A DNA stretch of 41,204 nucleotides from the NCBI GenBank assembly GCA_903919615.1, contig CAIXIX010000503.1, positions 1-41,204 on the forward strand, given 5' to 3'. The notes beneath the pieces were generated by a model that saw only the letters and a list, made by a program, of their open reading frames with translations, did not search any database and had not been told where the DNA came from. The position numbers and the translations under genes were made by a program. Source of the stretch: an uncultured Chthonomonas sp. GTDB lineage: Bacteria > Armatimonadota > Chthonomonadetes > Chthonomonadales > Chthonomonadaceae. Of this stretch, positions 1,804-41,180 are shown piece after piece. How positions within the stretch are numbered: the first letter of the stretch is position 1; each line of letters starts with the position of its first letter.

Positions 1804-4011
1804 TTGACTTTGCGCCCTCTCTCTAGCCGCTTCTCGAATTTCAGCTTTATTTCTTTATCGTTGAGCCTTTGTCTGCTAGGCGCAACCAGGCTAGCTGGAG
1901 CAGATAATAGTGGAGGCGTCCGCGTGACCGATCAGAATGCCGACTGGCTGGTGAATCCGGCGGGATACGTATCAAAAGTCCATCTGGACGCTGCTCATAA
2001 AGAGCTGATCCTGGAGAACGGGCTCGCAAAGCGGGTATTGAGGCTGCAGCCAAACGCCGCAACGGTTGCGATCGATAACCTTACTAACGGTCAGTCGCTA
2101 CTGCGCGCTGTCGGGCCGGAGGCACGCATTAGCATCAACGGAACGGTGTATGCGATCGGCGGCCTCTTCGGGCAGCCGATTGCAAACTATCTGCGTCAGG
2201 AGTGGATCGATCAGCTCAAAGATGATCCAATGGCATACCACTATACCGAATGGCACGAAGAGCCAATTACTGCACGGTTTCCATGGAAGAAGCATCCAGA
2301 GTGGCTGTCGAAAGATCTTGCCTGGCCGCCGCCTGGCCGCCATCTGGTGATGCGCTATGCTGCTCCTCAATCGCGCGCCGACCTGCCTTCAGTGGAGGTC
2401 CACTACGAGATCTACGATGGTTTGCCTCTCTTCTGTAAGTGGATTGTTGTGAAGAACACGACAGGAAAACCAGTCAATGTTGATAGCTTTGTCTCCGAGG
2501 AGATCCGGCTCACCGAGCCAGAATCGAATGTTGAGGCGGTTCCGGATCGTGAGCGGCCCGACATCTGGGTGGAATCCGACTACGCCTTTGGCGCGATGGA
2601 CGCGCCGCACGCTGCCGCTAAGGCCGTCAGTCTGGAGTCGGATCCGGACTATCCGACACAGGTAAACTACGACCGCAAGACGCCCTGCTTACTGAAGTGT
2701 AAGCCACCGATCGGCCCGAATATCACTGTGCAGGCGGGACAGAGCTTCGAATCTTTCCGCGCGTTTGAGCTGCTGCTCGATGCCACCGAGCGGGAAAGGC
2801 GCGGCCTTGCGCAGCGGCGGATGTATCGCACCATCGCGCCGTGGACCGCCGAGAACCCGCTGATGTTCCATCTGCGCAATGCAGATCCGGCGTCGCTCCA
2901 TAACGCCATCGATCAGGCGCATAAGTCTGGTTTCGAAATGATAATCATGTCGTTTGGCAGCGGCTTCAATTTTGAGAACCGCGATCCGAACTACATCCAG
3001 AAGTACAAGGACCTGGCGGACCAGGCGAAATCCAAAGGCATAGCACTGGGCGGTTACTCATTGCTCGCGTCTCGCGGCGCAGCGACGGCTGCGGATAACA
3101 CGCAGGGCCAGCCAGCGATGTATGGCACGATGCCCTGCCTTGGTGCCGCATGGGGAATCGATTATCTCAAGCAGATCAAGCGCTTCCTCTCGGAAGCGAA
3201 CCTAACCGTTCTGGAGCATGATGGCTCCTATCCGGGCGATCGCTGCACCTCGACCGAGCATCCCGGTCACAAGGGGTTGGAGGATTCGCAATGGGTGATG
3301 TGGAGGGCCATCACGGATCTGTATAAGTGGTGCCGCGGCAACGGTGTATATTTGAATATTCCCGATTGGTATTTCCTGAACGGCGGAAACAAATGCGGGA
3401 TGGGGTACCGGGAATCGAACTGGTCTCTGCCGAGGGCAGAGCAGGAGATCATCGAGCGGCAGAACATCTTTGACGGCACCTGGACCAAGACCGGCTCCAT
3501 GGGCTGGATGATGGTGCCGCTGAGCGAGTATCAGGGTGGGGGCGAAGCCGCGACGATAGAGCCTTTGCACGCGCATCTTGATCACTATGAGGCGCGCCTG
3601 GCCAACCTGATTGGAGCGGGTGTGCAGGCTTGCTATCGGGGTCCGCGACTGTTTGATACCGACGGAACACTCAAGGTTGTCTCTCACTGGACAGCCTTCT
3701 ACAAGAAGCATCGGCAGGTTCTGGATGGCGACATGATCCACCTGAGGCGCGCCAACGGGCGCGATTGGGATGGGTGGCTGCATGTGAATCCGGCGGGTGA
3801 AGAGAAGGGACTTGCATTCCTCTACAATCCGCTAGCCGAGCAAATCACCCGAACCGTGAAGATCCCGCTACACTACACCGGGCTGTCCGGCCAATGCCTG
3901 GTATCGATTGACGGCGGCAAATCGGAACGCGTCGCGCTAAGCGGTGACAATACTGCTGCGATTAAGGTCACGATCCCGGCACGTGGGAGAGTCTATCTGA
4001 TTTTTAGGTGA
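1804..4011 (+). CDS. Secreted alpha-galactosidase-like glycosidase
   Basis: A 735-residue protein. It starts at TTG 1804 with GGAG 7 nt upstream. Residues 1-33 form a signal peptide (hydrophobic SFISLSLSLCLLGATRLAGA), so it is exported. Residues ~40-330 look like the beta-sandwich N-terminal region of GH36/GH31-like enzymes (ending FRAFELLLDATERERRGLAQRR). Residues ~350-640 resemble a TIM barrel (FEMIIMSFGSGFNFENRDP; KSKGIALGGYSLLASRG). LEHDGSYPGD near 470-479 resembles the strand-4 segment that carries the nucleophile Asp in alpha-galactosidases, so D473 is a candidate. The C-terminal ~80 residues look like a small beta domain (GLAFLYNPLAEQ to RGRVYLIFR). Substrate and family number cannot be fixed from the sequence. 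It stands alone, with decayed genes upstream and a repeat-rich gap downstream. Confidence 0.7.
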   Translation: MTLRPLSSRFSNFSFISLSLSLCLLGATRLAGADNSGGVRVTDQNADWLVNPAGYVSKVHLDAAHKELILENGLAKRVLRLQPNAATVAIDNLTNGQSLLRAVGPEARISINGTVYAIGGLFGQPIANYLRQEWIDQLKDDPMAYHYTEWHEEPITARFPWKKHPEWLSKDLAWPPPGRHLVMRYAAPQSRADLPSVEVHYEIYDGLPLFCKWIVVKNTTGKPVNVDSFVSEEIRLTEPESNVEAVPDRERPDIWVESDYAFGAMDAPHAAAKAVSLESDPDYPTQVNYDRKTPCLLKCKPPIGPNITVQAGQSFESFRAFELLLDATERERRGLAQRRMYRTIAPWTAENPLMFHLRNADPASLHNAIDQAHKSGFEMIIMSFGSGFNFENRDPNYIQKYKDLADQAKSKGIALGGYSLLASRGAATAADNTQGQPAMYGTMPCLGAAWGIDYLKQIKRFLSEANLTVLEHDGSYPGDRCTSTEHPGHKGLEDSQWVMWRAITDLYKWCRGNGVYLNIPDWYFLNGGNKCGMGYRESNWSLPRAEQEIIERQNIFDGTWTKTGSMGWMMVPLSEYQGGGEAATIEPLHAHLDHYEARLANLIGAGVQACYRGPRLFDTDGTLKVVSHWTAFYKKHRQVLDGDMIHLRRANGRDWDGWLHVNPAGEEKGLAFLYNPLAEQITRTVKIPLHYTGLSGQCLVSIDGGKSERVALSGDNTAAIKVTIPARGRVYLIFR

Positions 4012-15339: not shown

Positions 15340-17034
15340 TTAGTGCGTTTCCATTGGGCGAGGGATTGTCGTTGGACGCAAGGAGATAAATCCAGACAAA
15401 GTCAACTTGCTCGAAGCTTGACCTGCAGGTCGCATCAGTTCGATCGTCAGTGGATCGCCGGGCCGGGACAACATCGATACGATGCGCACGTCGACTTCAT
15501 CTTTCACGGGCCGACCATTAATCGATAACACCTGGTCTCCTGTGCGCACACCCACTTTTTGGGCGGGAGAATCCGGGTAGATGGCGCTAACCACAACGTT
15601 GCGAACGAGGTCAATTTTCCCGTTCGATGTGTCATGGCTGAGGTGCGCAACCACGCTCATACCTATCCAGCAGTGCTCCACCTTTTTGCCAGCCTTCAAG
15701 TCTTCGAGGACAGGTTTCATGTTATTTGTAGGCAAGGCATAGGCTGCGCTTGGTACGCCAAATCTAAAATCCGGTCCGAAGCCAATTCCTGGGTTAATGT
15801 TGCCTGGACCTCTGCCACGGTTTGGCGTTCCCTGGCCAGGCGATGCACCCCGGTCGATTCCGGGACCACCGGGTCCAGGGCCACCCAAAGCAGTACCGCT
15901 GTTCGGTTGAAAGGCGAATGGACCTCCGGGGCGATTATCCGCCATCGGCGCTGCTACGATCATACCTACAACTTCGCCAGCCGAGTTTAGGATGGGTGAG
16001 CCGCTAATCCCAGCTGCCGATGCGCCTGAGACCTGAAAGAGGCGCGGATAGAACCTTCGACCGGAGAACATGCCTTCCGAGCGTATTGCAGCTACCGTGT
16101 TCAGCGCGACCGTGTTAAAGCTGCCAGGCTGACTTCCAATGCATATTGCAAAGTTGCCCGTTGTTACCGTGTCGGAATTGGCAAGGTTCAGTGTTGCCAA
16201 CTGTGTTGCGGCGACAAGGCGGACCATACCTATGTTCGTCTCGTTGTCCATGCCAACGATCTGAGATCGCAGTCTCGATCCATCGGAAGTAATGATGATC
16301 GGCTCTGACATCCCGTCGAGAACGTCCGCAGTCGTTACTACGAGACCCTCGCCGATTGAAAAACCCGCCCCAACTTTAGGTACTTCGAATCGATTGCCGC
16401 CTTCGGCCTCAAACTTCTGTCGGTATACAGCCAACTCAGCCTGTACGGTCTGAACCTGAGTCTGCAGAAAAGTACGGGCATGTTGAAGCTGAACTGCGTG
16501 GGTACCGCCCGGCTTCAGCGTTGGGCCAAGTTGTGTTATCTCGGCATCAACCTTCGCCTTCTCTGCCGTTAGTGCATCCAGATGTCCCTGCCACACGTCA
16601 ACACGTGTGCGCGAGGCCTGTGGCATACGAGTGATATCTGCCTTCAGCGTATCAATTTCACTATCGATCGCTTGAATTGCCTTTTGCGCGCTAGCTACAG
16701 CGGATGGAGACGGCTTGATAGATTTATTCAGAAGGTAGAGTCGGAGTTCGGCTTCCGACTTTCTGTTGAACGCATCAATCGTCTGATGCCTTAATCCCCT
16801 TCGGCGCCCGGCGATGGCCATCCGAAACAGGTCTTCGGCCTCAATTCCGCGCAGGTCTTCAATCGTAACAACACAGGAGTTTGTGCGCGCGAAGATTGAG
16901 GAGACTTGAGACTGAATAGCGCCAAGCACATCGCTCCCTTGTGAGGGAGCAGGCGTCTGCTGCGCATATGCCACAGCAGACATCTGGATGCAAAACGCCA
17001 TGGCTGTTACGCCAAATGCTTTGCTCCTCACCAC
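15340..17034 (-). CDS. HtrA-like pseudo-protease with PDZ domain
   Basis: A 564-residue exported protein with a signal peptide at 1-25 (AFGVTAMAFCIQMSAVAYAQ). Residues ~110-210 are heptad-like and Ala/Gln-rich, probably coiled coil. Residues ~221-362 form a trypsin-like HtrA/DegP fold, ~365-425 a Gly/Pro-rich linker, and ~455-545 a PDZ domain (IYPDSPAQKVGVRTGDQVLS, INGRPV). Aligned by eye to DegP, the catalytic His is D237 (VVTTADVLD, where VVTNNHVVD is expected) and the catalytic Asp is N267 (ETNIGMVRL, where SDIALIQI is expected); only the Ser is kept, S344 in GISGSPIL. It should not be an active serine protease and may bind or sense misfolded proteins. The GTG start overlaps the end of the anti-sigma gene. 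Confidence 0.85.
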   Translation of the reverse strand: MVRSKAFGVTAMAFCIQMSAVAYAQQTPAPSQGSDVLGAIQSQVSSIFARTNSCVVTIEDLRGIEAEDLFRMAIAGRRRGLRHQTIDAFNRKSEAELRLYLLNKSIKPSPSAVASAQKAIQAIDSEIDTLKADITRMPQASRTRVDVWQGHLDALTAEKAKVDAEITQLGPTLKPGGTHAVQLQHARTFLQTQVQTVQAELAVYRQKFEAEGGNRFEVPKVGAGFSIGEGLVVTTADVLDGMSEPIIITSDGSRLRSQIVGMDNETNIGMVRLVAATQLATLNLANSDTVTTGNFAICIGSQPGSFNTVALNTVAAIRSEGMFSGRRFYPRLFQVSGASAAGISGSPILNSAGEVVGMIVAAPMADNRPGGPFAFQPNSGTALGGPGPGGPGIDRGASPGQGTPNRGRGPGNINPGIGFGPDFRFGVPSAAYALPTNNMKPVLEDLKAGKKVEHCWIGMSVVAHLSHDTSNGKIDLVRNVVVSAIYPDSPAQKVGVRTGDQVLSINGRPVKDEVDVRIVSMLSRPGDPLTIELMRPAGQASSKLTLSGFISLRPTTIPRPMETH

Positions 17035-17783
17035 GGATGAGCCTCCTCGGCAACTTCTGTGGCCGAGGCGCTGGCCACGAGGTCAATCACGTAGCGGCGA
17101 CTCTGATCTTCGTCGCTTCCATTTGATGCCGATGCAAGCACGTAGTCATTCATGGCCACGCGCGTTCCATCCTGATCTTCGTCTGTCGCAGAAGGCGCAG
17201 ATTTTACGTTATGAGCAAGAGCGGGGTGCGGTGCCTTGGATCGCCGCGCAGAGGTGACCAAATATGAAGGAGTGGCATACTTAATGCCTGGAACCGTTGG
17301 CCCATGGTCGGATTCCTTTGCAAGGGAGCGGTCACTTGCTTCCGTGCCGCTGGGAACGCCATCCGCTTTGAGGGTATCGGGGACCGCGACTTTAGCCTGC
17401 CCCTGGTTGATCAACGCTTGATGGTTCGGCAGCCTAGAGTTTTGAGCCGTGAAGAACAGCACTGCAGCGGTTGCGGCAAGCACGCCAGCGCCCAGGCCGA
17501 AGCGCAAACCGGATATAGACCAAACGGAGGTGCGCGCTGGCTGAGCTGTCAGCTTATGCTCCAGATCTCTCCAGCCGAGTCGAGACTCTGGCTGGGATAC
17601 CGATCGGTAATTTGTGATCAGGTTCCGCGCAACTGAATAACCCGCAAGCTCTTCTGCGCACTTATCGCATGTCGTGATATGTGCAGCGATAGACTTTCGC
17701 TCAGAGTCGCTGAGCCCACCGCCGGCATAATCCCACAGCGACTTACGCACTTCGCTGCACTCATTATATATAGAGAATCTCAT
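17028..17783 (-). CDS. Zinc-finger anti-sigma factor, membrane-anchored
   Basis: A 251-residue protein from ATG 17783, with GAGGGCAGAG just upstream; an extension to 17903 would overlap the sigma gene and lacks a site. The N-terminus has the zf-HC2 anti-sigma motif: C9 and then HITTCDKC (H35, C39, C42). A single transmembrane helix spans ~92-112 (GLRFGLGAGVLAATAAVLFF). The ~140-residue C-terminal part, predicted extracytoplasmic, is polar and low in structure. It should hold the adjacent sigma factor at the membrane until stress. It lies 29 nt after the sigma gene and overlaps the start of the HtrA-like gene by 7 nt, so the three are translationally coupled. Confidence 0.88.
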   Translation of the reverse strand: MRFSIYNECSEVRKSLWDYAGGGLSDSERKSIAAHITTCDKCAEELAGYSVARNLITNYRSVSQPESRLGWRDLEHKLTAQPARTSVWSISGLRFGLGAGVLAATAAVLFFTAQNSRLPNHQALINQGQAKVAVPDTLKADGVPSGTEASDRSLAKESDHGPTVPGIKYATPSYLVTSARRSKAPHPALAHNVKSAPSATDEDQDGTRVAMNDYVLASASNGSDEDQSRRYVIDLVASASATEVAEEAHPW

Positions 17784-17812: not shown

Positions 17813-18403
17813 TCAGTCGGCCGTTCCCATAAGCGACGCAACTCGTTCTTTCAGACTGCGTCTCGCACGGAATAGTCTTAGCTTGATGCTCGTTCTGGAG
17901 CAACCCAGCACTGCTGCAATCTCCTCGTAACTCAGGTCCTGAATTTCGTGGAGAACAATTATTTCCCTTTGCGCAGGAGGCATCCCCTGCAGGGCCTTCA
18001 TGATTATTCCTGTTAGCTCTTTCCGCTCAGCGAGCGCTTGCGGGCCATCGTATTCATCGGAACAGCCAAGCTCGTCGTCTCGCAGAGTCGAGTCGTAGGT
18101 TACTTTTCTTCGATCCCAGGATTTAATCTTGTCGCGGCAGAGGTTGCCGCAAATTTTTAGGAGCCACGTTTGCAGGCTTGATTCACTGCGAAACGTGTTA
18201 ATGGCCTGAAACGCTTTCAGGAATGTTTCTTGTTTAATATCGTCCGCATCTTCACGGTGACCAAGAATGTGGTAGGCGTAACGAAAAACCTGACGCTCGT
18301 ACTTGTCGTACACCTGTGAATAAGCGTCCAGGTCGCCTGCGCGACACCGCGCGACCAGTTGATCTTCGGCAACCCGCATTATCACCCCATGTGCCGCTAC
18401 CAT
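17813..18403 (-). CDS. ECF RNA polymerase sigma factor
   Basis: A 196-residue sigma-70-family protein of ECF (RpoE-like) type. I chose ATG 18403 because AGGAGGT (18414-18420) is ideally spaced; the longer frame to 18484 has no such site. Region 2 runs from DQLVARCRAGDLDAYSQVYD through the -10-recognition segment HREDADDIKQETFLKAFQAI to SLQTWLLKICGNLCRDKIKS. Region 4 is LQGMPPAQREIIVLHEIQDL, SYEEIAAVLGCSRTSIKLRL and FRARRSL. It directs RNA polymerase to its regulon when released by the anti-sigma encoded next to it. A palindrome over a putative promoter lies upstream, which suggests tight control of the operon. Confidence 0.93.
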   Translation of the reverse strand: MVAAHGVIMRVAEDQLVARCRAGDLDAYSQVYDKYERQVFRYAYHILGHREDADDIKQETFLKAFQAINTFRSESSLQTWLLKICGNLCRDKIKSWDRRKVTYDSTLRDDELGCSDEYDGPQALAERKELTGIIMKALQGMPPAQREIIVLHEIQDLSYEEIAAVLGCSRTSIKLRLFRARRSLKERVASLMGTAD

Positions 18404-18437
18404 CGTATTAGCAACCTCCTGATGGTACTGACGACTC

Positions 18438-18465
18438 ATATTATGACGCGTATCACTCATTTCAA
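18438..18465 (-). promoter_or_regulatory. Candidate sigma-70 promoter of the sigma/anti-sigma operon
   Basis: On the minus strand, TTGAAA (18465-18460) and TAATAT (18443-18438) are separated by 16 bp. The transcript would begin near 18431, just before the strong AGGAGGT of the sigma gene. The -35 element is embedded in a perfect palindrome. Confidence 0.5.
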
Positions 18466-18476
18466 ATACTTGAAAT
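18459..18476. promoter_or_regulatory. Perfect 18-bp palindrome, candidate operator
   Basis: ATTTCAAATACTTGAAAT has 7-bp arms around a 4-bp centre (ATAC). It overlaps the putative -35 box of the minus-strand sigma operon and lies about 40 bp from the purL candidate -10. Half-site symmetry and position fit a dimeric regulator, but the protein is unknown. Confidence 0.5.
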
Positions 18477-18489
18477 CTCCGCATGCCGT

Positions 18490-29727: not shown

Positions 29728-29755
29728 TTAGTTGGTGTGGAGCGATGGTTCCAAA

Positions 29756-32530
29756 ATGTCATATGAATTGAACAGACTGGATGCCAAACTTCCAGACGGA
29801 ACTGTAACATTCCTGATGACGGATGTTGAAAACAGTACCGAGACCTGGGAACGCGTGCGTGAAGGCATGCGCCTCGCAATCCTGAAGCACGATCAGCTTG
29901 CAGAAGACATTATCAGGCTCAATGCGGGAATTCTGCTGAAGCACCGTGGCGAAGGCGACAGTCTGTTTGCCGTCTTCTCTAAAGCTGAAGACGCACTTGC
30001 GGCCGCCGTTGCCATGCAGATAGCTTTTCACGGGGAAACATGGCCGGAGGGTATCCAGATACGGGTAAGAATGGCGCTGCACACGGGGGTTGCAGATCTG
30101 CGAGACGGAGATTACTACGGGCCGGCAGTAAACCGATGCGCCCGGTTGCGCGGATTCGCCCATGGCGGCCAGACTGTGCTGTCTGGTACTGCAGCACGAT
30201 TGGTGCGCGAGGAGCTGCCTTCCGGCGTCACTCTGCTAGATCTAGGTGAGCACAAGCTTAAGAACCTGCAGCATCCGGAGCATGTGTTTCAGGTGGGCCA
30301 CCCAGACCTGCCCGATGATTTTCCTCCGGTCCGATCAGCAAACCGACCCAGCTCCAATCTGCCCATCCAGCTTACTCATTTTGTCGGACGAACTCAGGAG
30401 CAGGCCGATGTCCGGAGACTGCTTCTATCGTCTCGCCTGCTAACCCTTGTCGGGGTCGGCGGCATCGGCAAAACGCGTCTTGCAGTTGAGGTAAGTTCCA
30501 ATACTTTGGAGGAGTTTGCAGATGGCGCCTGGTTCGTGGACCTTTCGCGGATCACGGAACCTGCGCTGGTTCCGTTCGCAATTGCAGATGCGTTGAACCT
30601 TAAAGAGTCTGCGCAAGCGGCGGTCGAGGAGACGCTGGTTTCTTCACTGCGTGAGAAATCTGTCTTGCTAGTTCTGGATAATTGCGAGCATCTGATTGCA
30701 GCATGTGGATTTATCGTCGATCGACTTCTGAAGGCGTGTCCTGGACTTAGAGTTCTGGCAACCAGCCGGGTTGCGCTCGAAATCGCTGGTGAGACTGTAT
30801 GGAGCATGTCGCCTCTTTCCTACCCGGATGCGTCTCAGGTTGCAGGCAGCGATCTGGTTGAGATAGCGCAAAACGAGGCCGTGCGGCTATTTATAGATCG
30901 TGCCAGAAATATCTCACCAAAATTTGCGCTTACCGAGAAAAACCTTTCCTCAGTCGTATCGATTTGCAGGCGGGTTGGTGGCTTACCATTGGCGATCGAA
31001 CTTGCGGCTGCCAGGGTACATGTGATGCAGCCTGCAGATATCGATAAGCGTCTATTTGACCTACTGGAGAATAATTCTGCGGTCGCGCAGGGCAGGCATC
31101 GATCACTTCAGGCGCTAATGGAATGGAGCTTCGACTCGCTGCTTCCGGATGAACGCGGCCTGTTCATGCGTCTTGCTGTATTTACGGGTACCTGGTCGCT
31201 TGAAGCTGCTGAGGCAGTGTGTTCAGGATATGGTATTGCCCAGCGCAAAGTCATGAAATTGCTGCACAATCTGGTGCGTGGTTCGCTCGTTGTGACTGTC
31301 ACGGATGAACGTGAGCTGACGATGCGTTATCGCCTGCTGGAAGTTGTTCACGTGTTTGCGATGGAACAGTTGACCGATTCTGACGAAGAGCAAGTTTGGA
31401 GACAGGCGCACTGCGAATATTTCCTTGGGTTGGCAGAAGAGGCGGCCGGCTACCTTGACGGTCCACAGCAGGCTCAATATCTTGAACGGCTCGAAGTAGA
31501 CCACAGTAACCTTCGGGCGGCGATGAGCTGGACGTTAGACCCAGATATCCGACTGCGCTTTGCCGCATCCCTGTGGAGATTTTGGCATGCTCGCAGCCAT
31601 TTGAGTGAGGGGCGCGGCTGGCTCGAAAATGCGCTTGCTCGAAGCAGTGACACAACCAATGTGTTGCGCGCTCAGGCACTGAATGGCCTGGGCATTCTGT
31701 CGACAAGTCAAAGCGACTATGCCAAGGCTCAAGTGTATATTGAAGAGGCAGAGGAGTTATTTCGCATCCACGGCGATGAGCGAGGTATCGCAGAGGCTCA
31801 GACAAATTTGGGTAGTATTTTCCTTGAGTGTGGCGATCAGGTGCGGGCCATGAATTGCTTTGACCAGAGCCTCACAATCTGGGAGCAAACGAACAACCGG
31901 AGAGGCATAGCAAGTGCATCGAATAACATTGGGATGATCCTGCGATCTCAAAATAAGTATGCTGATGCCGAAAAGTACTTCCTTCGCGGTCTGCAATTGT
32001 ACCAGGAGCTAGAAGACGGTTTCAGAATAGGAATAATGTACAACAATCTTGGTGGAATAGCTTATGAGCTGGGAAGATACGAGGAGGCTCGTGACAAATT
32101 CCGATCTAGCCTTAACTCGTTTCAAGCGATTAATAATCGCCACATATCTGCTATTTTACTATACAATCTAGGTGAACTCGAGACGAAAATAGGCAGCCTT
32201 GATGCTGCGCTGCCACTATTCGTCGAGAGCTTACGGCTCCGCCGAGCAATGGGTGACCGCAGTGGGTGCGCTTTGGTTATTGGCAGCATTGCATCTGCTG
32301 CATTTCATTGCAATCACAATGTTGAGGCTGTCCGGCTCTATGCCGCAGCAGACCTGATTCACCGTGAAACTGGCAAAGCCTATCCGGAATTAGAACGGCA
32401 AGACTACGAAATTCGACTAACAACGCTGCGCACCAGACTGGGCGCGAGCATTTTTTCAGCAGAATGGGAAGCTGGCGCGCTGCTTACTTTCGATCAGGCA
32501 GCGGACTATGCGCTTTCCCAGCAGGTCTGA
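29756..32530 (+). CDS. Class III nucleotide cyclase-STAND (NB-ARC)-TPR protein
   Basis: A 924-residue cytoplasmic protein. Start ATG 29756; an in-frame TTG at 29732 is possible. Residues ~15-180 form a class III adenylate/guanylate cyclase domain: metal Asps D23 (FLMTDVENST) and D68 (GEGDSLFAVF), and N126/R130 (VNRCAR), so it looks active. Residues ~200-480 form an AP-ATPase: Walker A GVGGIGKTRLA (~232), Walker B VLLVLDNCEH (~303), VLATSR and GGLPLAIELAAAR. After ~590 come TPR repeats (ALNGLGILSTSQSDYAKAQV, ASNNIGMILRSQNKYADAEK, MYNNLGGIAYELGRYEEARD). Mycobacterial relatives end with a LuxR HTH; none is seen here, so output may be cyclic nucleotide or a partner protein. Confidence 0.9.
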   Translation: MSYELNRLDAKLPDGTVTFLMTDVENSTETWERVREGMRLAILKHDQLAEDIIRLNAGILLKHRGEGDSLFAVFSKAEDALAAAVAMQIAFHGETWPEGIQIRVRMALHTGVADLRDGDYYGPAVNRCARLRGFAHGGQTVLSGTAARLVREELPSGVTLLDLGEHKLKNLQHPEHVFQVGHPDLPDDFPPVRSANRPSSNLPIQLTHFVGRTQEQADVRRLLLSSRLLTLVGVGGIGKTRLAVEVSSNTLEEFADGAWFVDLSRITEPALVPFAIADALNLKESAQAAVEETLVSSLREKSVLLVLDNCEHLIAACGFIVDRLLKACPGLRVLATSRVALEIAGETVWSMSPLSYPDASQVAGSDLVEIAQNEAVRLFIDRARNISPKFALTEKNLSSVVSICRRVGGLPLAIELAAARVHVMQPADIDKRLFDLLENNSAVAQGRHRSLQALMEWSFDSLLPDERGLFMRLAVFTGTWSLEAAEAVCSGYGIAQRKVMKLLHNLVRGSLVVTVTDERELTMRYRLLEVVHVFAMEQLTDSDEEQVWRQAHCEYFLGLAEEAAGYLDGPQQAQYLERLEVDHSNLRAAMSWTLDPDIRLRFAASLWRFWHARSHLSEGRGWLENALARSSDTTNVLRAQALNGLGILSTSQSDYAKAQVYIEEAEELFRIHGDERGIAEAQTNLGSIFLECGDQVRAMNCFDQSLTIWEQTNNRRGIASASNNIGMILRSQNKYADAEKYFLRGLQLYQELEDGFRIGIMYNNLGGIAYELGRYEEARDKFRSSLNSFQAINNRHISAILLYNLGELETKIGSLDAALPLFVESLRLRRAMGDRSGCALVIGSIASAAFHCNHNVEAVRLYAAADLIHRETGKAYPELERQDYEIRLTTLRTRLGASIFSAEWEAGALLTFDQAADYALSQQV

Positions 32531-37616: not shown

Positions 37617-37778
37617 CCTGTTGAACCTCCATGAAGTCTTGTTCTAGATGAACGCGGTTATACTAGCAGTCTGGTCCGAAAATTCTCCGAAAGCCGTAAG
37701 TATCGGTCTTCAGTTTGAGGTGTATACTTTTGACTTAGTATCTGTTTATTATTGGACGGGAACTCGTGGGGGACTGCA

Positions 37779-40700
37779 ATGGAGACAGGCGCCTGCCAGC
37801 TCAAGCTCTTTGGAACAATCCGATTGTGCGCGAGTGATAGTTCGGAGTTGCCTCTACCCAGCAGAAAAGCACGTCTTCTTCTGGTATTTCTTGCACTTCA
37901 TCCCAATCAAGATGTTTCCCGCGAGCGGCTCATCGACCTATTCTGGCCAGAGATGGACGAGGAATCTGGGCGAGACAACCTGAGCACAACCCTTGCTCGG
38001 CTCCGCAAGACCCTCTCTCTGGCAGGTATCGATAATGCTCTTGTAGCCAACAGGCAGTTTGTATCGCTTCGTTCGACAAGGATCTACTGCGATATTGCCG
38101 CATTTGAATCTGCATTACGTGAATACGATGCAGCTCATTGCGACGAACAGAAGATAACCGCCCTCGAGAAAGCAGTTTCGCTCTACGCGGGTGAACCTCT
38201 GCCAGGTGTTTATGGCGATTGGGCAATCGAAATACAGGATCGGCTTATCGCTTCCTACCATTCAGTGCTCCACAGTCTCCTAAAACTGCATATGACGCGT
38301 GCCGACTATCCTGCTGCAGTCTATATCTCAACGCTCGCCACCTCACACGACCCCCTAGATGAAATTTCCGTTAGAGCGAGAATGCGCGCGCTGGCTGCAC
38401 TTGGCAGGATCAACGAACTAGAGGATTGCTTCAATGCGTTAGGCCGGGCGTTGCTTGTTGATGCACGAGTTTCGCCATCCCAGCAGACTCGAGAGCTGTA
38501 TGAAAGGTTGAAGGCGCAGTATAGTGAGGAAGAGCTCTCCATTGCGAATTCGGTTGCACCTTACCTTTCAACCGCTCCGAATGTTGAACCTAGGTGGTCT
38601 CTGCCCGATCCGCGAACATCCTTCTTTGGCAGAACTGCTGAGATTGAACGCATATATCAGGTTCTGACCCTGCCAACTTGCTTTGGTCGCCTCGTCACAC
38701 TCACCGGAATAGGTGGTATAGGGAAGACGCGAACAGCGATTGAATATGCGGCTCGTTTTCAAGAATGCTATCCAGAAGGGGTGTTCTATATTCCCGTTGC
38801 AGATGTAGTAGACACAAATTTGTTGCTTTCAACTATCGTTCGTGCGCTTGTGCCAAACCAAAATACCCCAACTGCGGAGAGGATCAAATCGATTGCCAGT
38901 TCATGTCGAACCGGCACGCGGCTACTCATCCTAGACAACTTTGAGCAACTGGTTGTTGCTGGTTCGTCGGTCATTGCAGAACTTCTAGCACAGTGTAGTG
39001 GCCTAAAGATTCTCATTACATCACGCCTGCGGCTAGGTATTGAAGCTGAAACAGAAGTAAATCTTGAACCACTATTGGCAGCGACATCTGCGGGAAAAGT
39101 GACCGGCGACGATGGCGCGTCCGATGCAGTTTCTATCTTTATCGACCGTTCCGGTCTAACACGATCAGAGTATTCCGACAGTGGGGTGCGTTCGGCGGTG
39201 ATCCGCCGCTTGTGCACACAGCTCGAGGGGATTCCGTTAGCGTTGGAGTTAGCAGCATCATGTACAGCGTTGCTAACACCTGAGCAGATCCTGGATAACC
39301 TGTCGTGCAGGTTCGACCTTCTTGTAAATCGCAATCGCGATGTCTTGCCTCGCCACCGAACCCTGAGCGTAGCGATAGGTGCGAGTTATACGATGCTTAC
39401 TTATGAACAGCAAGCATTATTCAGGGAATTGAGCGTGTTTCGAGGAGGAGTGGCGATCCCGGAGTTAATCAGCTGTTGGAATCAATGTAAGGAAAGCCCA
39501 TACGCATCCTTTGATCAAACTCAATTGCTGGAGAGTCTGGCTGTGCTGCGAGCGCATTCGCTTGTTGAATGTGAGCGTGCAGTTTCGGGCGCATCCGTTC
39601 GGATGCGCTACAGGATGCTCGAAACAGTTCGAGAGTACGCAGTAAGTGTGAGTCCTGAAGTAGAGAGGCAAGATCGTGATTTGAGGCATGCACATTGTTT
39701 TGCCGGCGTACTCAGGTCGTTGAGATCTGAGTCTGAGCAGTCCGGCGTGCTTGCGCCAGGCGAGCTCGGGCGACGTCTGGAATCACTGGATATTGACATT
39801 GATAACTTACGATATGCGTTCAAGCACCTACAGGGCAGCGAGTATAACGAGGCTATGGCTGCCCAGTTCGCTCTCGACTTCGATTGGTTTCTTATGGTAC
39901 GTGACTATCAGGAGGAGCGGCGCGAGGTTGCGATTGCGGCCTATGAGCGGTTTCAACACAGTGCGCTCCCAGTCGGCTTGATAGATTTGCTCGGAATCGG
40001 CAGAATGCACCATGCCCCAATGGAGGTAAAGCGAGCATGGTACTGCAGTCAGGTTGCGTTGATCAGGGAATCAGATAATCAAAATAGGCTGGCTGGAATA
40101 CTTGGGCTGTATGGCGATGTAGCAGTTGATGAGCGTTCAAAAACAGCGTCATTCGCAGAAAGTATGGATATTTACACGAAGCTGGGATGCCTTGATGCCG
40201 CCAATGTATCTCGAGCTAGCCTGGCCGGCGTATACACCCAATTTGGCCGACTGGGACGCGCAACGGCACTTCTGAAAGAGTGCCTGGAGTACAACTTGAG
40301 CTCTGGCCGTGATTGGGATGCTGCCCGTATTCGCTTTGCTCTGGGCCAAATTGCTCTTCGGAAAGGCCGGACATGTGACGCTATCTCAAGGTTTGAACTA
40401 GCTCTGGATTTCTTCCGAACCGCAAATATCCGCAGGCTGGAAAGCAGCCTACGCGGTTGGCTTGCTGCGGCACACTGTTTAAGTGGTCACCACGACTTGG
40501 CACAGGCATATGCCGATGAGGAATTACAATCAATCGAAAGCCTGGGCGGGCAGATTCGCCCTGGCGATGGAACGGAAATGTACTGTTACGCACTTATTCA
40601 CATGCGTCGCCTTGAAGAAGCCACTCGGGTTTTGACAGGGCTCAGTATGAGTGTCCACTTTACCTCAATGGGTGTATCTCAGCAGAAGTTCAATCTCGCC

Positions 40701-41180
40701 ATGGCGAGAGGCGAAGATGCGGCAGCAAAACACCAGTTGTGTGAGTGGGCTGAGTGTCTTCAATCCGATGACGGTGATGCCTGGGGAGCAGTTTGGCATA
40801 ATGCAAATGCAAATTTGGCTGGGAGGCTTGGTGACCTGAAAACCGCGGCGAGCTCACTTCGGGCCTGCCTTGCCGCCGCTGTTGCAAATGAACTGCTGCC
40901 ACTCATTATCACCTCACTCGCAACCGCCGCAGATATCGCTGTGCAAACCAGAAAGATTCCTTTCGCCATCAAAATGCTTGATGTGCGTGAAACACTAATG
41001 GGGTTTTACGGCTTTTGCCCGATCTGGTACGAACAAGCCGGATGCGAGTTGCTCCGTAGACGATGCTTCGAGACGGAACCAAGCGTGCTGAATAGTGAGT
41101 GTTCGTTTTCTAGTTATGTGACACCGACAATTGACGGTGCAACTAACGAGATACTCTTGTTTCTCGAAACATTGTTGTAG
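37779..41180 (+). CDS. BTAD (SARP-like)-STAND-TPR transcriptional regulator
   Basis: A 1133-residue protein from ATG 37779, with GGGGGA about 5-8 nt upstream; a TTG at 37752 is a weaker option. Residues ~5-95 form an OmpR/SARP-type winged helix (LKLFGTIRLCASDSSELPLP, LLVFLALHPNQDVSRERLID, NLSTTLARLRKTL). Residues ~100-245 form a bacterial transcriptional activator domain (AVSLYAGEPLPGVYGDWAIE). Residues ~295-560 form an NB-ARC NTPase: Walker A GIGGIGKTRT (~310), Walker B RLLILDNFEQ (~381), KILITSRLRLG and GIPLALELAAS. The rest is TPR-like helical repeats. Such proteins activate genes after ligand-driven NTPase assembly. The target genes are not obvious from the context. Confidence 0.9.
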   Translation: METGACQLKLFGTIRLCASDSSELPLPSRKARLLLVFLALHPNQDVSRERLIDLFWPEMDEESGRDNLSTTLARLRKTLSLAGIDNALVANRQFVSLRSTRIYCDIAAFESALREYDAAHCDEQKITALEKAVSLYAGEPLPGVYGDWAIEIQDRLIASYHSVLHSLLKLHMTRADYPAAVYISTLATSHDPLDEISVRARMRALAALGRINELEDCFNALGRALLVDARVSPSQQTRELYERLKAQYSEEELSIANSVAPYLSTAPNVEPRWSLPDPRTSFFGRTAEIERIYQVLTLPTCFGRLVTLTGIGGIGKTRTAIEYAARFQECYPEGVFYIPVADVVDTNLLLSTIVRALVPNQNTPTAERIKSIASSCRTGTRLLILDNFEQLVVAGSSVIAELLAQCSGLKILITSRLRLGIEAETEVNLEPLLAATSAGKVTGDDGASDAVSIFIDRSGLTRSEYSDSGVRSAVIRRLCTQLEGIPLALELAASCTALLTPEQILDNLSCRFDLLVNRNRDVLPRHRTLSVAIGASYTMLTYEQQALFRELSVFRGGVAIPELISCWNQCKESPYASFDQTQLLESLAVLRAHSLVECERAVSGASVRMRYRMLETVREYAVSVSPEVERQDRDLRHAHCFAGVLRSLRSESEQSGVLAPGELGRRLESLDIDIDNLRYAFKHLQGSEYNEAMAAQFALDFDWFLMVRDYQEERREVAIAAYERFQHSALPVGLIDLLGIGRMHHAPMEVKRAWYCSQVALIRESDNQNRLAGILGLYGDVAVDERSKTASFAESMDIYTKLGCLDAANVSRASLAGVYTQFGRLGRATALLKECLEYNLSSGRDWDAARIRFALGQIALRKGRTCDAISRFELALDFFRTANIRRLESSLRGWLAAAHCLSGHHDLAQAYADEELQSIESLGGQIRPGDGTEMYCYALIHMRRLEEATRVLTGLSMSVHFTSMGVSQQKFNLAMARGEDAAAKHQLCEWAECLQSDDGDAWGAVWHNANANLAGRLGDLKTAASSLRACLAAAVANELLPLIITSLATAADIAVQTRKIPFAIKMLDVRETLMGFYGFCPIWYEQAGCELLRRRCFETEPSVLNSECSFSSYVTPTIDGATNEILLFLETLL

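Follow-up and report, generated by a model that had tools for sequence, protein, structure and literature searches.

An HtrA-fold protein lacking the standard catalytic triad in an ECF sigma/anti-sigma factor operon of Armatimonadota

In the textbook circuit of the envelope stress response, an HtrA protease cleaves an anti-sigma factor in a regulated manner. DegS and AlgW, the regulatory HtrA proteins serving as site-1 proteases of RseA and MucA, combine a trypsin-like domain with one PDZ domain and act in a circuit of an ECF sigma factor and a membrane anti-sigma factor. In E. coli it is established that PDZ domains bind C-terminal peptides, that DegS senses the C-termini of OMPs via its PDZ domain and that RseB shields RseA (PMC8103513). 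The periplasmic proteins RseB and MucB are encoded by the third gene after the sigma and anti-sigma factor genes and have a fold unrelated to that of HtrA proteins. HtrA-type proteins kept without catalysis beside an active paralogue have been described for magnetotactic bacteria: MamO has retained His and Asp, has Thr for Ser and binds a metal by a di-His motif (PMC4794232). The mycobacterial sigE/rseA-htrA locus presents the gene order sigma, anti-sigma and HtrA, and its HtrA (Rv1223) is an essential active protease degrading an amidase (PMC10027907).

A three-gene unit of this layout is read leftward, on the minus strand, in the window, a stretch of 41,204 nucleotides from an uncultured Chthonomonas sp. 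of the Chthonomonadaceae (Armatimonadota). The ECF sigma factor gene (17,813-18,484; ORF list and Pfam) probably starts at 18,403, as comparison with relatives indicated. It is followed by the gene of an anti-sigma factor with a zf-HC2 domain (17,028-17,783), which encodes 251 amino acids from the ATG at 17,783; this start matches the relatives, the longest open reading frame beginning at 17,903. The last gene (15,340-17,034; 564 amino acids, GTG start at 17,034) codes for a probably secreted protein with a trypsin-like domain and one PDZ domain, named pseudo-HtrA in the following, and its start overlaps the anti-sigma stop by seven bases. Gene order and Pfam domains bear out the sigma/anti-sigma operon context proposed in the first-pass annotation, and the third place in an ECF sigma/anti-sigma/HtrA operon was found for all pseudo-HtrA copies whose contigs include upstream DNA. 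The components of regulated intramembrane proteolysis are present, namely an ECF sigma factor, a zinc-finger anti-sigma factor with a transmembrane segment and, in the genome, RseP. The N-terminus of the pseudo-HtrA, MVRSKAFGVTAMAFCIQMSAVAYA-QQ, reads by eye as an apparent cleavable signal peptide and not as a DegS-type membrane anchor, which would be a difference from DegS and AlgW. Other parts of the window encode two large proteins with NB-ARC and tetratricopeptide repeats (29,732-32,530 and 37,752-41,180), the latter also carrying a BTAD/Trans_reg_C regulator part, and an ORF of 735 residues on the plus strand (1,804-4,011), a putative gene without Pfam match at E 0.001.

HMMER alignments to MucD (8k2y) and DegP (3mh5) placed D237 on the catalytic His (vTTaDVldG against LTNNHViDG), N267 on the catalytic Asp (netNigmv against prtDvavl) and S344 on the catalytic Ser (aaGiSGsP against npGNSGGP). 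The corresponding codons, computed from the start at 17,034 on the minus strand, are 16,324-16,326, 16,234-16,236 and 16,003-16,005. The Gly-X-Ser-Gly of the oxyanion loop is retained. The three residues and the remaining PDZ domain had been called by eye in the first-pass annotation, and the calls were correct. The His-Asp-Ser triad that characterizes S1C peptidases is absent; the window protein has D237-N267-S344 in its place. We infer from these replacements that the pseudo-HtrA is proteolytically inactive. It would in this respect resemble MamO, its inactivity being read from the sequence, but it keeps the Ser and loses His and Asp, and it has no conserved His. DegS and AlgW differ by their catalytic His and Asp.

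The domain order is that of HtrA/DegP proteins (MEROPS S1C), a trypsin-like domain with a C-terminal PDZ domain. Pfam searches assigned Trypsin_2 to residues 222-358 (64.9 bits) and a PDZ domain to residues 453-539 (15,418-15,678, minus strand; PDZ_2, 42.5 bits), with the carboxylate-binding-loop motif WIGM at 456-459; this loop, X-hydrophobic-Gly-hydrophobic, is present in the pseudo-HtrAs. The match to the NCBIfam Do family TIGR02037 scored 127 bits, below the cut-off of 416. Since the protein has neither the triad nor a score above this cut-off, it should not be classed with the HtrA proteases. RseB and MucB have an unrelated fold, and a MucB/RseB domain found no Pfam match in the window protein at E up to 0.1. 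The AlphaFold model, built with 8 sequences, had a mean pLDDT of 69.7, with about 85 near D237 and N267 and about 64-78 near S344. Its structural matches were MtbHtrA, MucD, DegP, AlgW and DegS with Z of about 25-30, the best being M. tuberculosis HtrA structures (Z about 30); matches over both domains had an rmsd of 2.3-5.6 across 264-312 residues.

The loops LA and L2 control the activity of HtrA proteins (PMC11642142), and both are rebuilt in the pseudo-HtrA in comparison with DegS and AlgW. In the model, helices 67-210 follow the first strand and precede the GSGF strand, at the place of the LA loop in HtrA proteins; this helical insert comprises about residues 61-216 (16,387-16,854, minus strand; model and loop comparison). 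A Gly/Pro-rich insert at the L2 position (about residues 364-428; 15,751-15,945, minus strand; alignments and model) lies within the protease domain, ahead of the last strand (429-435), and not between protease and PDZ domain; the protease domain closes with this strand and a final helix, which together take residues 429-447. The coiled coil and the Gly/Pro linker of the first-pass annotation are therefore present, but they are inserts into the LA and L2 loops, the linker is part of the protease domain, and neither is found throughout the system. A long LA insert occurred in 7 of 9 close relatives, the window counted, and a short one elsewhere. LA and L2 were both mostly long in the close relatives; in distant relatives they were estimated at about 8-90 and 12-44 residues, respectively. 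These shorter loops place the inserts outside the core design.

The core of the pseudo-HtrA (residues 217-365; 15,940-16,386, minus strand) was the region of the family alignment A2, and the core alignment served as query in a search of 291 Armatimonadota genomes. Twenty-eight copies from two families, Chthonomonadaceae and a second family of the phylum, scored at least 168 bits. A clear gap separated them from the rest: one copy scored 142, and a third family reached at most 133 bits; canonical HtrAs, which score about 118 bits or less, are interspersed among the weakest matches of this family. The replacement of His and Asp at positions 237 and 267 turned out to be a property of the orthologues, as all 28 relatives carry Asp or Glu, Asn and Ser at the triad positions. 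The constancy of this pattern in two families, together with His-Asp-Ser in the paralogues of the same genome, excludes a chance substitution. The 142-bit copy (L113, 13-1,299), located at a contig start, has Ser-Asn-Asn. In the third family (12 loci) the His position is Glu or Asp and the Asp position Gly in 12/12, while the Ser position is Pro in seven, Ser in three and Gln in two. Thus the acid has proved the most stable of the features, and part of the group no longer has the nucleophile; with Ser lost in 9/12 and the acid kept, nucleophilic catalysis is dispensable in this family. A scan of genome contigs with the single sequence gave zero matches. A scan with a nine-row alignment retrieved only members of the Chthonomonadaceae type (seven loci) and two outside matches, one Akkermansia-titled and one from a Bacteroidetes MAG, both His-Asp-Ser. 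A description of the pseudo-HtrA family was not found in an open literature library, which covers few subscription journals.

Canonical HtrAs occur side by side with the pseudo-HtrAs. In the genome of the window the triad positions were scored in nine further trypsin-like proteins, a tenth match at a contig end being left out, and all nine have His-Asp-Ser; one of them, on contig C420, is also third in a sigma/anti-sigma/HtrA operon. Canonical loci fetched across the phylum had His-Asp-Ser in 20/20 and the sigma/anti-sigma/HtrA layout in 12/20. At three loci of the third family (L102, L103 and L108, the first cut at the contig edge) both operon types are adjacent. In trees built with the triad columns removed, the HtrA proteins split into a canonical side (support 99.8/100) and a pseudo side (89.9/83). 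Orthologues with an intact triad were sought, and the pseudo-HtrA clade contained none; the proteins that have the full triad form a separate clan of paralogues. The sigma factors split into the same two groups (100/100 and 96/99) with a branch of 1.67 between them. A recent tandem duplication, considered as their origin in view of the three adjacent pairs, is not put forward; given this distance between the sigma factors, we claim parallel operons of the same layout only.

The anti-sigma factor of the window consists of a helical zf-HC2 domain, one hydrophobic transmembrane helix (hydrophobicity and predicted helix, 97-115) and a tail ending in ..RRYVIDLVASASATEVAEEAHPW. Disorder is predicted for this tail, as pLDDT stays under 50 from residue 114 to 249 in a model from a shallow alignment of six sequences. 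Tail sequences vary widely apart from their end, where a [YF]-[VI]-[MIL] or a related EYLPV segment is found roughly 10-30 residues before the C-terminus. The final residue of 39 anti-sigma factors linked to pseudo-HtrAs was Phe (11), Glu (10), Tyr (9), Trp (8) or Leu (1). Trp, Tyr or Phe hence ended 28/39, compared to an aromatic content of 4.1% in the tails; these end counts are not independent, the groups being related by descent. A separate C-terminal signature marked the 14 anti-sigma factors beside His-Asp-Ser HtrAs (L121, L124, L129, L131-L139, L103, L108): the final residue was Arg in nine, His in four and Asn in one, thus Arg or His in 13/14 (..RYYR, ..FSIH, ..ETPR). The constancy of the Trp and Phe ends may be due in part to the overlapping HtrA gene, since the terminal Trp codon TGG falls inside the seven-base overlap with the HtrA start (ATGGTRA) and, at Phe ends, the anti-sigma gene overlaps the signal-peptide region of the HtrA gene. 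The overlap was at most one base in 8/9 Tyr cases, and besides these only the Glu family is essentially overlap-free. Four genomes possess two pseudo-HtrA operons (L033/L043, L035/L044, L037/L045 and L038/L048), one of the Asp type with an anti-sigma factor ending in Trp and one of the Glu type with an anti-sigma factor ending in Tyr. Possibly these pairs form insulated parallel channels.

A search of the upstream DNA for the classical ECF promoter GGAAC gave no match. A promoter-like element GATAAC-N(13-17)-CGT(CTA) was present upstream of the sigma genes in 9/9 Tyr-ending operons and in the five tested operons of the second family (L039, L043-L050; L040-L042, L119, L120), and this shared element suggests autoregulation. 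The GATAAC-CGTCTA type element was not found upstream of the operon of the window.

The gene order, the conserved replacement in the triad, the PDZ domain with its loop motif, the anatomy of the anti-sigma tail and the RseP encoded in the genome are features of the sequence, and on their basis we consider it fairly probable that the dedicated pseudo-HtrA is a binding partner, a co-anti-sigma factor or sensor, of its own anti-sigma factor. The first-pass annotation had likewise suggested sensing by binding, a reading which these features support in part. Its PDZ domain would hold the carboxyl end of the anti-sigma tail, which is Trp, Tyr or Phe in most lineages, and the former active-site groove may accommodate the [YF]-V-[MIL] segment just before the tail end. 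With the tail held, the anti-sigma factor would be shielded in the way RseA is by RseB, or kept able to bind sigma. The tail would be freed by envelope stress, probably in the form of misfolded-protein C-termini competing for the PDZ domain, and would then be open to cleavage by a true site-1 protease, for which an ordinary His-Asp-Ser HtrA paralogue is a candidate. Cleavage by RseP would then release the sigma factor. The pseudo-HtrA would thus work like RseB and in its place, binding the tail without cutting it, on an HtrA scaffold and not as a member of the RseB family; in comparison with DegS and AlgW, the putative PDZ ligand would be located on the anti-sigma factor itself. Some observations speak against parts of this model. 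Two families never vary at Ser344 or at the oxyanion Gly342, a constancy for which binding alone gives no obvious reason. A terminal Glu, as in one family, is an unusual ligand for the PDZ domain of an HtrA protein, and the gene overlap at Trp and Phe ends partly confounds the C-terminal residue.

The loss of two catalytic residues might also indicate a decaying pseudogene. This reading is refuted by the open frame, by the conservation of the replacement in dozens of genomes and of the operon, and by dN/dS ratios of 0.08-0.14 in four close pairs (dS was saturated in a fifth), values which show that the genes are maintained by purifying selection; its probability is negligible. The main rival, which we regard as unlikely, holds that the pseudo-HtrA works via an active His-Asp-Ser paralogue, by mixed assembly or allostery, and that this paralogue cuts the anti-sigma factor in the manner of MamO and MamE. 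HtrA cores are trimers, which counts for mixed assemblies, and the same genome provides nine trypsin-like proteins with intact triad, including the one in a parallel operon. The promotion of proteolysis by an active HtrA through a pseudo-HtrA is established (PMC4794232). A metal site like that of MamO was rejected for the window protein, which is devoid of a conserved His. A role as periplasmic chaperone within the sigma regulon, with the gene placed in the operon for co-expression only and the anti-sigma factor left untouched, appears rather improbable. DegP-type proteins have chaperone activity, and this counts for such a role, as do the membership of DegP in the sigma-E regulon (PMC8103513) and the case of M. 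tuberculosis, whose htrA is co-transcribed with rseA but has no clear part in controlling the sigma factor (PMC10027907). However, the adjoining anti-sigma factors have a C-terminus type of their own, unlike those beside active HtrAs, and sigma factors and HtrA proteins fall into the same two groups.

A DegS-like site-1 protease for the anti-sigma factor, active through an unconventional site of Asp/Glu-Asn-Ser type and possibly adapted to low pH, would account for the invariance of Ser344 and Gly342 in 28/28 copies and for the always acidic His position of the two families. Sedolisins, which have a different fold, are a precedent, as an acid replaces His as general base in these enzymes; to our knowledge, this chemistry is not known in the trypsin fold. 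In a comparison of 27 copies, with Asp and Glu counted as one at position 237, the polar residues conserved at 85% or more were T234, D/E237, N267, S287, S308, Q334, S344, D500 and R535. A conserved His, Lys or Cys was absent from the whole protein at this threshold, and the conserved acids were limited to D/E237 and D500, the latter a residue of the PDZ domain. This list leaves no alternative base, so a supply of catalytic residues from other positions, which the first-pass annotation had named as a refutation of its reading, is unsupported by the 27 sequences. Position 267 is always Asn in the two families, and the domain offers no other conserved titratable residue. The third family has Gly at this position and, in 9/12, a Ser replaced by Pro or Gln; one relative reads S-N-N, and the window protein has heavily remodelled activation loops, LA and L2. 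We therefore give an unconventional protease little credence. Very improbable is the combination in which the anti-sigma factor carries its own C-terminal PDZ ligand, gated by the pseudo-HtrA, and the acid-Asn-Ser site is a working serine protease in the families with invariant Ser.

Returning to the pseudo-HtrA as a binding partner of its anti-sigma factor, an HtrA protein has lost the standard triad long ago and in many species, alongside a matching change of the anti-sigma C-terminus. The phylum runs the textbook HtrA circuit of envelope stress in parallel with a version without the triad. An active and a presumably inactive operon in one genome are natural pairs in which the roles of catalysis, PDZ ligand and loops could be told apart. 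If true, the proposed binding role would show a route from a sensor protease to a binding switch.
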